Shown here: in pieces, positions 2,055 through 54,149 of the stretch
How positions within the stretch are numbered: the first letter of the stretch is position 1
Layout: every line of letters begins with the position of its first letter
Source of the DNA: an uncultured Alphaproteobacteria bacterium
Lineage (GTDB): Bacteria > Pseudomonadota > Alphaproteobacteria > Methylaequorales > Methylaequoraceae
Direction: 5' to 3'
Assembly: GCA_902523675.1 (NCBI GenBank)
Contig: CABZAL010000006.1
Span: 1 to 64,000, forward strand
DNA length: 64,000 bases
Notes under the pieces: generated by a model
Databases searched by the model: none
The model's input: the letters and a program-made list of their open reading frames with translations, nothing else
Told to the model about the DNA's origin: nothing
Program-made: the position numbers and the translations under genes

Positions 2055-3071
2055 ATGAGTAAACAATTTAAAAAAAAAGATCTAAAGTTTTTTTTTTTCC
2101 TAATTATTTTTATGTCTGGATGCGTCAATAAAAACCAAAAATATAGTGATTATTATTTATTAAATAAAGACTATAATTATAATTTTAAAACTTGGAATTC
2201 AAAGCAGGAATCAAAATTTTTAGTTTTAGCAGTTCATGGTTTTAACGACTATGCAAACTCATTTTTAATACCTGCTCAATTTTTGTCAAAATTTCACATT
2301 ACAACAATTTCATTTGATCTAAGAGGATTTGGTTCCAATCAAGACGCAAAAAGATGGTTTCCTCTAGAAGTACATATTTTTGATATAAAAAAAATAATAC
2401 TCAAGTTAAAGAAAAAAAATCCAGAAAAAAAAATTTTTCTTCTAGGAGAAAGTATGGGAGGAGCCATTTTACTTAGTCTATTATCACAAGAAAAGTATCT
2501 GCCAATTGAAGGTGTAATATTGGTTGCTCCTGCGATTTGGAATTTTTCAGAGTTAAATCCCCTGAAAAGTTTTATACTTAAAAGTTTTTCAAAATTATTC
2601 CCAAAATTTAATATTAGCGGAAAAGGTTTACTCAAGGTTCAAGCAAGTGATAACATAGAGATGTTGAAACAGTTATCAAAAGACAAATATTTCATCCATG
2701 AACCAAACCTTGAAAGTATTTACGGTATTACCGAACTTATGGATTCGGCATTCAAAAGTACAAAAGTTTATCTAAAAAACCCGAGCTATAATACATTGAT
2801 TATTTTGCCTCTTCTAGACGAGATTATTCCAAGAAAACCCATCAAAAGTTTATTTGATGAATATGAAATTAGAAGAAATATAGAAAAAAAGATTGATTTG
2901 GCAGTATATGATAAAAACTATCATATGATTTTAAGGGACCTTGATGGAAATAGAGTTATAAGAGAGATTAAAGAATGGATTTTTGATAGAAAAAGGATTA
3001 AGGATCTTTATTCATTTAAAATGAGCTTGGAAAGATTAGAAAGTTCACAATATATTCATCAATTAGATTAA
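2055..3071 (+). CDS. Alpha/beta hydrolase (lysophospholipase-like), putative lipoprotein
   Basis: Lipobox-like MSGC; HGFNDYANSF, LLGESMGGA nucleophile elbow. Confidence 0.85.
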   Translation: MSKQFKKKDLKFFFFLIIFMSGCVNKNQKYSDYYLLNKDYNYNFKTWNSKQESKFLVLAVHGFNDYANSFLIPAQFLSKFHITTISFDLRGFGSNQDAKRWFPLEVHIFDIKKIILKLKKKNPEKKIFLLGESMGGAILLSLLSQEKYLPIEGVILVAPAIWNFSELNPLKSFILKSFSKLFPKFNISGKGLLKVQASDNIEMLKQLSKDKYFIHEPNLESIYGITELMDSAFKSTKVYLKNPSYNTLIILPLLDEIIPRKPIKSLFDEYEIRRNIEKKIDLAVYDKNYHMILRDLDGNRVIREIKEWIFDRKRIKDLYSFKMSLERLESSQYIHQLD

Positions 3072-50279: not shown

Positions 50280-51203
50280 ATGTCAAGGCCTAAAAATTTT
50301 GTAATTGAAGTTGAAAATTTATTTAAAAAATATAATGGTGAAATTATTGCTTTAAATAATATTAACCTAAAAATTCCTCAAGGTTCTATTTTTGGACTTT
50401 TAGGTCCAAACGGAGCAGGAAAGAGTACTTTTATAAATATTTTAGCAGGACTTGTAAATAAAACATCTGGGAAAGTAAAAATTTGTGATGTAGACATAGA
50501 TGTCAATCCTAAAACCGCTAGAGGATCAATAGGGGTAGTTCCTCAAGAAATCAATATAGATCCATTTTTTACACCGATTCAAATTTTAAATTTACAGGCA
50601 GGCTTTTATGGTCTGAAAAAAAAGGATATGAATAATAATCTGATACTAAAAGAAATCAATCTGTCTGATAAGGCTAATGCATATTCTAGGAGTTTGTCAG
50701 GTGGTATGAAAAGAAGATTAATGGTAGCTAAAGCAATGGTACATTCACCACCTGTTTTAGTTTTAGACGAGCCTACTGCTGGGGTAGATATTGAATTAAG
50801 AAAAAAATTATGGGCTTATATTAAAAAATTAAATACGTCCGGAACAACTATAATTCTTACTACACATTATTTAGAAGAGGCTGAAAATTTGTGCGATAAT
50901 ATTGCAATTATAAATCGAGGGAGTCTTGCAGCATGTGATACAACTAATAAGTTATTGGCTACAATTCAAAGTAAAGAAATCAATGTTGAAGTGGAAAAAA
51001 TTTTTAATAAGGTTCCTTCTAACTTGAAGGATTACTTAATTACTTCAAATGAAAACACTTTTACACTAAAATACAAAAAAAATGAAATTAGCACTGGACA
51101 AATGATTGATTTAATAAAGCAAAATGGATTAAAAATAATTGAAATCTCTACTCGAGAAACAGATTTAGAAGAAATTTTTTTAAAACTTCTAAATAAACAA
51201 TGA
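50280..51203 (+). CDS. ABC transporter ATP-binding protein (ABC-2/YadG-like)
   Basis: LGPNGAGKSTFINILAGLVNKTSGKV; SLSGGMKRRLMVAKAMVHSPPVLVLDEPTAGVDIELR. Confidence 0.93.
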   Translation: MSRPKNFVIEVENLFKKYNGEIIALNNINLKIPQGSIFGLLGPNGAGKSTFINILAGLVNKTSGKVKICDVDIDVNPKTARGSIGVVPQEINIDPFFTPIQILNLQAGFYGLKKKDMNNNLILKEINLSDKANAYSRSLSGGMKRRLMVAKAMVHSPPVLVLDEPTAGVDIELRKKLWAYIKKLNTSGTTIILTTHYLEEAENLCDNIAIINRGSLAACDTTNKLLATIQSKEINVEVEKIFNKVPSNLKDYLITSNENTFTLKYKKNEISTGQMIDLIKQNGLKIIEISTRETDLEEIFLKLLNKQ

Positions 51204-51247
51204 TTTTTGATAATTGATAAATAATTTTTTAATGGTATTTTTAATTT

Positions 51248-51532
51248 ATGTTAAATCTTATGTGTTTTTTAGTAATTACAGCCTTTTCAAAAATAAGTGT
51301 TTCAGATGAAATAATTAGAGACAGAAGTGGAAATTATTATTTAATGAAGGATGATGGTTCATTTAAAAGATTACCACCACCAAAACCAGGAAAAAAATAT
51401 ATAATTAAAAAAAATACTAAACATTATGAAAATGAAACTAAGAATCCTAGAAGAAGTAAACCTAAGTCAAGATTTGATACTCGGTCTGCAAGAAAGCATT
51501 TGCCTGGGAAAAATACACCCGGAATCCAATAA
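51248..51532 (+). CDS. Small secreted hypothetical protein
   Basis: Hydrophobic N-terminus then basic/proline-rich DGSFKRLPPPKPGKKYIIKK. Confidence 0.5.
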   Translation: MLNLMCFLVITAFSKISVSDEIIRDRSGNYYLMKDDGSFKRLPPPKPGKKYIIKKNTKHYENETKNPRRSKPKSRFDTRSARKHLPGKNTPGIQ

Positions 51533-51607
51533 CTTTAAAAATACAGTAAAAAAAAATTTTAAGCCATATATATTGCAATTTTTATTGTTTTATTATAGAT
51601 TTTTAAA

Positions 51608-52342
51608 ATGGAAAAGTTAGAATTCTCAAAAAAAGAATTAAATAGATTTTTGCTACTCGGAGAAAATAATTCTTATATAACTGATCAGAATTATCCACTT
51701 ATCAGAGCTTTTAAGAGAAAAAATCTTCTTGCTATTTTTTGCACGTTAAGAATAAAAAGAGAAACAACTACAATTAAACTAGGAACTTATCCTAATAATT
51801 CCATGGAAGAGATATACATAAAGTTTGCAGTAGCACAAAAAATAGCCAAAGCTGGTAATAACCCAAATCATGTTTTTGTTTCCAATAAGATTGAAGAAAA
51901 TATATCTAATGATAAAACACTACTAAGTATCACTAACATTTTTCTTAAAGAAAAGAATCTGAATACAAAATACGCAAAAGATTTTGTAAATACCCTTAAA
52001 AAGAATTTACATGAAATATTTGAGAGTCCATTGAAAGAATTTAATAAAACTTATTTATCGCAAAAGATAGATGATTTATTACTGAGAGAAAAAAGAGGAA
52101 CAGCTAAAAATCTATTAAATTATTTGTCTACGTTGCTTAATTTTTCTCTAAAAACAAGATATTTTGGAGATATTGACGAAATATTAAAAATTCTAAACCA
52201 TTGTAGTACTTTAAAGGATAAATATAAAAAAAAATTCGGGAATGAAAAAAATTTAGAAAAATATGAAATTATAAAAATGATAAATAAACTTAATAATAAG
52301 CAATTGCTAAAACTAAAAAAAATGTTGAAGGAATTTAATTGA
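51608..52342 (+). CDS. Integrase arm-type DNA-binding + core-binding (SAM-like) domains, no catalytic domain
   Basis: LRIKRETTTIKLGTYPNNSMEEIYIKFAVAQKIAKAGNNPNHV resembles the P4-type integrase arm domain; NYLSTLLNFSLKTRYF resembles core-binding; ends with no R-HxxR-Y domain. Confidence 0.6.
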   Translation: MEKLEFSKKELNRFLLLGENNSYITDQNYPLIRAFKRKNLLAIFCTLRIKRETTTIKLGTYPNNSMEEIYIKFAVAQKIAKAGNNPNHVFVSNKIEENISNDKTLLSITNIFLKEKNLNTKYAKDFVNTLKKNLHEIFESPLKEFNKTYLSQKIDDLLLREKRGTAKNLLNYLSTLLNFSLKTRYFGDIDEILKILNHCSTLKDKYKKKFGNEKNLEKYEIIKMINKLNNKQLLKLKKMLKEFN

Positions 52343-52557
52343 ATTCAAAAAAAAGAAAAATTATTTGGAGTTTTATACAAATTAAGGGAAAACAACTTTT
52401 GAATAAATTGCCGCATGATATCAGACATCCTAAAGGAAGAAATCCATATGCTCACATTTGCTCAGAAATTAAAAAAAAATTTAAGTGTTCTTATAGAGAT
52501 GTTGAAGATAAAAATTTTGAAAACCTTATTAGATACATAAACGATATACAAGAATAA
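52339..52557 (+). CDS. Small ORF6C-like (phage antirepressor C-terminal-like) protein
   Basis: RNPYAHICSEIKKKFKCSYRDVEDKNFENLIRYINDI resembles the ORF6C pattern; TTG start overlaps the preceding stop (TTGA). Confidence 0.4.
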   Translation: MNSKKRKIIWSFIQIKGKQLLNKLPHDIRHPKGRNPYAHICSEIKKKFKCSYRDVEDKNFENLIRYINDIQE

Positions 52558-52558
52558 A

Positions 52559-52606
52559 AGGAAACCTAAATTAAAACAAAGGGAGGAATTAAATTTAAGG
52601 TTTCCT
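52559..52606. terminator. Strong hairpin, possible terminator of the 51.6-52.6 kb pair
   Basis: AGGAAACCTAAATT (52559-52572) / AATTTAAGGTTTCCT (52592-52606), one bulged base; no U-tract. Confidence 0.45.
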
Positions 52607-52681
52607 AATATTCATTTCTGATTTTTCAGAAAGGGTCTTATAATAAGTAGCAAAATTCATACCAAAAAGATAATTGATAAA

Positions 52682-52825
52682 ATGAGGGAATTTTTCCAGA
52701 ATCTAAATAATTATAACTTAACTTGTGCGGCTCTGCTTTTTCCAGCAATTCCTTTAATGATGATATCCTTTAGGAATGGATATAGCATATTAAGTTTATT
52801 AATTAGAAGATCTAAAAAAATCTAA
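52682..52825 (+). pseudogene. Truncated DUF2721-like membrane protein fragment
   Basis: MREFFQNLNNYNLTCAALLFPAIPLMMISFRNGYSILSLLIRRSKKI*; resembles the ALLFPAISLLLLAYTNRF..LIR start of DUF2721, rest missing. Confidence 0.5.
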
Positions 52826-52835
52826 ATATTAGAAA

Positions 52836-54149
52836 ATGATTCAAAAGTTAATTATAGATAATTTTAATAAACATCCAAAAGGTCTGATCTTTTTATTTTT
52901 CGCTGAATTGTGGGAGAGATTTAGTTACTACGGAATGAGATCTATTTTAGTTTTATATCTTATTTCAGATTCTAATTCACCTGTTCCAGGTATGGGATGG
53001 ACAAAAGTTGAGGCTATTAGTCTCTATGGTTGGTACACTGCACTAGTATATTTTGCATGTATACCAGGAGGAATTATTGCTGACAAAATGTTTGGTTCAA
53101 AGAAATGTGTAATAATTGGGGGTGGGCTTTTGTGTATTGGTCATCTTTTGTTATCGATTTCTAATAACTTTTTTTTCTTCACAGGCCTTGGATTTATAAT
53201 TATTGGAGTAGGACTACTTAAACCTAATATATCTGCTCTTGTAGGAGCTTTATACCAAAAAGAAAGCAACATAAGGGAACAAGGATTCACAATTTTTTAC
53301 GTAGGAATAAATATTGGAGCCTTTTTAGCAAGTATAATGGTTGGCTTAGTTGGAGAAATTTATGGTTGGCATTATGGTTTCTCATTAGCAGGAATTGGCA
53401 TGATAATAGGTCAAATTGTATTTGTAAGCGGGAGAAATTATTTACCAGAAACAAAGATAAAAAGAAAATTAATAACTCCAAAGAAAAAACTCTCAAGTAT
53501 TGAAATTGATAGAATAAAAGTTTTACTGATTTCATTTCTAATTATTCTTTTTTTCTGGGCTTCATTTGAACAAGCAGGAGGACTAATGAATATTTATATT
53601 TTTGAGAAAACTAATAGAACTATATCTTGGCTTGGATCTTGGCAAATACCTGCTGGATGGTTTCAATCAATTAATCCACTTTTAATTATTATTCTAGGCA
53701 TACCAATTTCAACAGTCTGGTTAAGATTAAATCAAAAAAGAAAGAAATTTAGTTCATTGTTTAAAATGACGACTGGCATTATGATTATGGGCTTAGGTTT
53801 TATTTTTATGTTTTTTGCTAGTTTAGAATTCGAAAAAGGTGGAAGCTCAGCAATGTATTGGATTTTTCTTGCGTTTCTATTTCATACAGTTGGTGAACTA
53901 TGTGCCTCTCCAGTAGTCTTGTCGTTTATAACAAAACTTTCTCCTGAAAAATACATATCTTCAATAATGGGAATATATTTTGCAACTATGGGATTAGGAA
54001 ATAAGCTTGCTGGTACGATTGGACAATTTTCTCAGAGCTTTGGTGAATCAAAAACATTTCTAGGAATCACAATTTTTTGTTTAACATTTGGAATGATTGT
54101 TATGTTATTCTTAAAAAGATTAGAGAAGTTAAGCCATAATGCAGATTAA
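52836..54149 (+). CDS. POT/PTR family peptide MFS transporter
   Basis: HPKGLIFLFFAELWERFSYYGMRSILVLYLI; FTIFYVGINIGAFLASIMVG. Confidence 0.95.
   Translation: MIQKLIIDNFNKHPKGLIFLFFAELWERFSYYGMRSILVLYLISDSNSPVPGMGWTKVEAISLYGWYTALVYFACIPGGIIADKMFGSKKCVIIGGGLLCIGHLLLSISNNFFFFTGLGFIIIGVGLLKPNISALVGALYQKESNIREQGFTIFYVGINIGAFLASIMVGLVGEIYGWHYGFSLAGIGMIIGQIVFVSGRNYLPETKIKRKLITPKKKLSSIEIDRIKVLLISFLIILFFWASFEQAGGLMNIYIFEKTNRTISWLGSWQIPAGWFQSINPLLIIILGIPISTVWLRLNQKRKKFSSLFKMTTGIMIMGLGFIFMFFASLEFEKGGSSAMYWIFLAFLFHTVGELCASPVVLSFITKLSPEKYISSIMGIYFATMGLGNKLAGTIGQFSQSFGESKTFLGITIFCLTFGMIVMLFLKRLEKLSHNAD

Follow-up and report, generated by a model that had tools for sequence, protein, structure and literature searches.

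Can the DNA-binding half of a tyrosine integrase persist as a gene of its host once the catalytic domain is gone, and does such a gene form a functional unit with the small reading frame that it overlaps? The question is raised by a locus in the 64,000-nucleotide stretch of contig CABZAL010000006.1 that we refer to as the window. A first-pass annotation had proposed that two overlapping reading frames at this place, here named ORF1 and ORF2, represent a coupled pair of phage- or integrase-derived DNA-binding domains that is retained as one module and followed by a strong hairpin. Both reading frames are present, and the overlap of the ORF1 stop with the TTG start of ORF2 was confirmed. The window belongs to a 1.1-Mb assembly that is 74% complete (G000), to which G001 (CABZFH010000001, 'uncultured Alphaproteobacteria AG-337-E20') is most closely related. 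Both were included in a comparison of 32 genomes of the same family (f1). The features of the locus are, in positions of the window:

51248 to 51532, plus strand: sp94, a small secreted-type protein upstream of ORF1, direct neighbour of ORF2 in relatives
51608 to 52342, plus strand: ORF1, 244 aa, ATG start; by homology the stand-alone arm-binding and core-binding half of a tyrosine integrase
51608 to 51883, plus strand: arm-binding (N-terminal) region of ORF1, residues 1-92, from the alignment to the Arm-DNA-bind_3 region of full integrases
51884 to 52159, plus strand: core-binding region of ORF1, residues 93-184, from a Phage_int_M match and the alignment to the Phage_int_M region of full integrases
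52160 to 52339, plus strand: tail of ORF1, residues 185-244, at the position where the catalytic domain starts in full integrases; most variable part
52339 to 52557, plus strand: ORF2, a conserved small protein (72 aa) with a weak resemblance to ORF6C, found in streamlined marine alphaproteobacteria
52552 to 52672, plus strand: structured element comprising, besides the hairpin noticed in the first-pass annotation, another hairpin and conserved 3' sequence; match to covariance model R1 with E 1.9e-5

ORF1 corresponds to the DNA-binding half of a tyrosine integrase

A genome search with ORF1 retrieved full-length integrases of 451 aa from two members of the same family, G010 and G015 (31-33% identity, E 3.6e-17 and 1e-15). 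Residues 3-180 of ORF1 align with residues 5-194 of such an integrase at 32% identity (E 1e-17). In Pfam, the 451-aa proteins contain Arm-DNA-bind_3, Phage_int_M and Phage_integrase domains, and they score 2e-6 to the core-binding domain PF22022. The Arm-DNA-bind_3 region aligns with residues 3-92 of ORF1, and the copy of ORF1 in G004 reaches E 0.055 to the arm domain PF13356. The core-binding domain is indicated by the alignment with the full integrases as well as by Phage_int_M, the only Pfam domain found with ORF1 alone (E 0.11 over residues 114-184). ORF1 stops short of the PF00589 region of its full-length relatives, the 60 residues of its tail are aligned by MAFFT only with the linker preceding the catalytic domain, and no match to a catalytic domain follows ORF1 at the locus in the window. 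On the basis of this homology, ORF1 is an integrase-derived arm- and core-binding protein without catalytic domain, just as it had originally been read.

No family match of ORF1 or ORF2 passed a curated cut-off. Relatives were not detected among viral contigs with ORF1, the full integrase or an alignment of both as queries; phage records returned a single chance-level match to ORF1, and a sequence search of solved structures returned none. An AlphaFold model of ORF1 calculated from a two-sequence alignment has a mean pLDDT of 39.6, and the fold is thus assigned solely from sequence homology. When 385 genomes of the class were searched with profile A2, 19 were positive besides the window's own genome. 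The matches in these 19 genomes reside in open frames of 383-658 aa, with the single exception of a 252-aa frame in G221, which marks the stand-alone half as an unusual form.

ORF1 resides at a single locus in three sister genera

The same chromosomal position is occupied by ORF1 in five genomes from three sister genera, namely G000 and G001 (genus g1), G002 and G013 (g2) and G004 (g4), and the catalytic domain is absent in all five. Among the family genomes with the locus, these are the only carriers. Where the locus is held, the family gene order is polA, ABC, sp94, ORF2 and POT, with an additional hydrolase-type gene in g2. ORF1 is placed between sp94 and ORF2 in every carrier, and the other genera carrying the locus exhibit sp94-ORF2 synteny without it. 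No mobile-element genes were seen around ORF1; it has conserved genes of the chromosome as its neighbours, namely polA, ABC, sp94, ORF2, POT and tRNA-Arg. The frame is intact in four of the five genomes (two genera). The copy in G004 contains one 1-nt frameshift at a run of 11 A, beyond which homology continues to the end; the shift may reflect either a mistake in the assembly or genuine decay.

The additional gene of g2, of the alpha/beta-hydrolase type (L033:7596-8612), lies between ABC and sp94 and is absent there in the window. A similar gene is found at 2055-3071 of the window (plus strand), apparently as the result of a relocation or as a paralogue.

In a concatenated tree, the five ORF1 genomes are split from all others with 100% support. 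An outgroup-rooted PolA tree unites the three ORF1 genera in one clade (bootstrap 82) next to an ORF1-free sister clade (99), a grouping that fits a single gain. The simplest history is therefore one gain of ORF1 in the ancestor of g1, g2 and g4, while the bootstrap value of 82 for the ORF1 clade leaves an early loss in the sister clade as a possible alternative. The locus has been kept in three genera whose PolA proteins diverge by about 37% of amino acids.

ORF1 is under purifying selection

Purifying selection acts on ORF1 and is strongest in the arm domain. For G000 versus G001 and G002 versus G013, dN/dS amounts to 0.20 (p 5e-6) and 0.11 (p 1.5e-19), respectively, values in the same range as those of neighbouring genes (about 0.06-0.26). 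The arm region differs between G000 and G001 by 0 nonsynonymous and 8 synonymous changes (Fisher p 2e-6), and its dN/dS is 0.06 for G002/G013. For the two pairs, the core-binding region reaches 0.27 and 0.12 and the tail, as the least constrained part, 0.35 and 0.18. ORF1 has hence lost its catalytic domain, and what remains is under purifying selection (both p < 1e-5). The dN/dS comparison suggested in the first-pass annotation speaks for retention of ORF1, and the opposite finding, an intact integrase at this place in relatives together with relaxed selection on ORF1, was looked for and not encountered.

ORF2 is a separate gene of the host lineage

ORF2 starts with TTG, shares ATTGA with the ORF1 stop and has an in-frame TAA directly before its start codon. 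It is present in 26 of the 32 family genomes. It was not found in G005, G006, G012, G024 and G029, three of whose contigs end before the locus while two assemblies are without polA, and for this reason a loss is not claimed. Outside the family, ORF2 occurs in other gene surroundings in G060 and G287 (f30), G128 (f98), G190 (f141) and G220 (f75). An alignment of 15 members contains 13 invariant columns including the start, among them RN-YAH. In most ORF1-free family genomes, the start of ORF2 and the in-frame stop of sp94 overlap or touch each other, the frame being read from coordinates. As an observation in its own right, proteins of about 72 aa with the pattern HPxGRNxYAH thus make up a family without Pfam entry that is found in unrelated contexts in four other marine families of alphaproteobacteria.

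In two of the five ORF1 carriers, ORF2 has suffered damage. In G001 it contains a 1-nt insertion and has lost its stop, and the otherwise invariant residues R34, Y37, H39 and Y52 are changed. It is also broken in G002, and ORF1 is intact and under selection in both genomes. The homologous frame shows a near-neutral dN/dS of 0.73-0.89 for G000 versus G001, and nucleotide divergence between these two is 13.4% in ORF2, 10.7-15.4% in flanking non-coding DNA and 5.1% in ORF1. ORF2 is intact in those ORF1-free members that were read and broken in two of five ORF1 genomes, which is suggestive of a displacement of ORF2 by ORF1, with two events as its basis.

The proposed ORF6C-like character of ORF2 holds as a weak resemblance. 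The last 40 residues align with the ORF6C profile of phage antirepressors (PF10552), the best E value being 0.038 in one of 21 members, and hhalign against eight phage ORF6C sequences gives a probability of 67% over 40 of 72 columns. The curated cut-off is not reached by ORF2, and ORF6C was not found above it in any of 142 genomes, the window's own included. Unlike ORF6C antirepressors, ORF2 is a chromosomal gene of 72 aa, lacks the rest of an antirepressor and has no phage match: tblastn with the G015 orthologue did not reveal a homologue in 50,697 phage records (E up to 1). AlphaFold predicts an all-helical structure for ORF2 alone (pLDDT 68), to which no PDB entry matched below E 2.9. A relationship of ORF2 with the ORF1 family was considered and rejected, as none was found.

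Judged from its distribution and conservation, ORF2 is an old host-lineage gene, older than and independent of ORF1. On the evidence above, ORF2 does not originate from phages, nor is it obligatorily tied to ORF1, and a separate gene that lies downstream of ORF1 by chance is the best explanation. The idea of a coupled pair of phage- or integrase-derived domains has consequently to be given up: ORF2 occurs without ORF1 in other genera and in four further families, and since it adjoins sp94 in relatives, is broken in G001 and G002 and drifts near-neutrally, the frame overlap is no proof of a retained unit. Retention itself stands for ORF1, with its single locus in three genera and its purifying selection.

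A conserved structured element follows ORF2

The hairpin noticed behind the two reading frames is real (z -2.8) and part of a larger conserved element, in which a stem with a large conserved loop is followed by a second hairpin and then by a conserved AGCAA..TGCCA. The loop of the main stem carries AAGGGAGGAAATATTAT, near-invariant in relatives. Between G000 and G001, the element differs by 1 change in 123 nt versus 11-15% in flanking non-coding DNA. A covariance model (R1) built from 11 relatives detects 25 family loci including the window, with one strong copy per genome that is always situated just 3' of ORF2. The main stem exhibits compensated variation at 6 of 9 pairs, with 23 double changes versus 2.8 in shuffles and 0-4 in sliding controls, in an alignment that was fitted to the model and is therefore biased towards the structure. 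Rfam contained no match. A plain intrinsic terminator was rejected as an identity of the hairpin, because there is no terminator-like site within 51200-52900. The next gene is tRNA-Arg in g2 and a POT or DUF2721 gene elsewhere. That the hairpin belongs to the locus of ORF2, and not to that of ORF1, is the best explanation, and the element is a candidate for a new structured RNA of this marine lineage, either a small RNA or a leader.

Downstream of the element, positions 52682-52825 of the window (plus strand) contain a remnant of a DUF2721 membrane protein gene, 47 codons long and truncated in comparison with the 138 aa encoded in G004 (L034:5363-5779).

Related integrases in the family

The 451-aa integrases of G010 and G015 adjoin a tRNA-Thr gene in an island-like setting. 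In both cases (L036 and L037), panD-like and helicase genes are found across the tRNA from the integrase. Island cargo differs between the two genomes, and McrB/McrC-like genes adjoin the integrase of G015. None of the ORF1-bearing genomes, whose assemblies are 54-96% complete, was found to contain an intact related integrase. A search for a catalytic domain elsewhere in G000, as had been advised, led only to a frameshifted remnant of the catalytic domain of a tRNA-Thr-type island integrase (G000:C7:9159-9562, corresponding to L075:5160-5563) with 58-61% identity to the tRNA-Thr island integrases (G010 residues 315-448). It adjoins Z1/HNH-type genes resembling a defence island. We rejected the notion that ORF1 is the missing half of this remnant, as ORF1 is common to three genera and the remnant shares 58-61% identity with the island integrases.

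What ORF1 may do

The homology of ORF1, the lack of a catalytic domain, the shared position, the single-clade distribution and a purifying selection that is strongest in the arm domain together lend good support to its interpretation as a retained, domesticated DNA-binding protein. In this reading, the ancestor of g1, g2 and g4 would have acquired an integrase gene, or only the 5' half of one, at the sp94/ORF2 junction, everything from the catalytic domain onward would have been lost, and the arm- and core-binding half would have been kept by selection once mobility was gone. ORF1 is probably an ordinary DNA-binding protein today. We lean, by a small measure, towards the full statement that it has kept its binding to specific arm-type DNA sites and functions for the host as a regulator, possibly a local one, or as a DNA-architectural factor.

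It is conceivable, if rather unlikely, that ORF1 serves as an anti-integration factor, which would occupy arm or core sites of incoming islands or form dead mixed complexes with their integrases and so protect the chromosome. Intact integrases of related islands next to tRNA-Thr do occur in the family, the genome of the window has no more of such an integrase than the broken catalytic remnant, and constraint within ORF1 is highest in the arm domain. Against this stand the failure to find an intact related integrase in any ORF1-bearing genome and an identity of only about 31% to the nearest island integrase, which makes shared sites doubtful; furthermore, nothing links ORF1 to att sites. Still more speculative, and doubtful in our view, is the idea that ORF1 is the founder of a class of integrases which are encoded by the host, lack catalysis and act by occupying integration sites or poisoning foreign integrases, a form of island defence suiting streamlined genomes, and that it displaces ORF2 in part of the clade.

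That ORF1 and ORF2 act as one functional unit, either as a complex or as a coupled pair, would agree with the stop/start overlap in G000, G013 and G004 and with the intactness of both frames in G000 and G013. This reading is very improbable and largely refuted by the breaks of ORF2 in G001 and G002 next to an intact, selected ORF1, by the occurrence of ORF2 alone in other family genera as well as in four additional families, and by its equal adjacency to sp94 in relatives. There is even less reason to believe in an accessory factor which works with a full integrase, as a helper or as a directionality protein, for a mobile element remaining in these genomes: the domains of ORF1 normally fold the integration complex, but mobile-element genes were not seen around it and the ORF1 genomes (54-96% complete) yielded no intact related integrase. 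Decaying integrase debris with a frame kept open by chance, for which the origin from a mobile-element gene, the missing catalytic domain and the frameshift in G004 might be cited, is hardly credible in view of open frames in four genomes and a locus kept across three genera, and it is refuted by the dN/dS values for both species pairs tested.

Comparison with known systems and significance

The domesticated DNA-binding protein that we favour shares the order of arm and core domains with the arm-binding-domain tyrosine recombinases of phages and ICEs, to which it aligns along this whole half. It differs from them by the lack of the catalytic domain and its residues, by the absence of a surrounding mobile element and by its vertical inheritance at one locus. 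The closest precedent for this kind of event is found in plants, where the N-terminal DNA-binding domain of DIRS1-type tyrosine recombinases was recruited for transcription factors in the form of ALOG domains (PMC3537659). In both cases, the DNA-binding half of a recombinase is kept without the catalytic domain and a role as regulator is proposed. The ALOG domain is eukaryotic, stems from a retroposon and comprises the core-binding-type domain only, with a zinc-ribbon insert (PMC3537659), whereas ORF1 is bacterial and has kept the arm domain as well. Mobile-element recombinases are described as having arisen through acquisition of the arm domain (PMC8138268), so that retention of the arm without catalysis is the point worthy of note.

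ORF1 thus represents a new instance of a domesticated DNA-binding half of a recombinase, of moderate novelty, while the element behind ORF2 adds the candidate structured RNA. ORF1 provides a bacterial case with measured selection in which, in a manner comparable to plant ALOG proteins, the targeting half of an integrase outlives the catalytic half as a host gene. If its binding sites were found, they would show whether dead integrases serve genome-streamlined ocean bacteria as regulators or in protection against islands.
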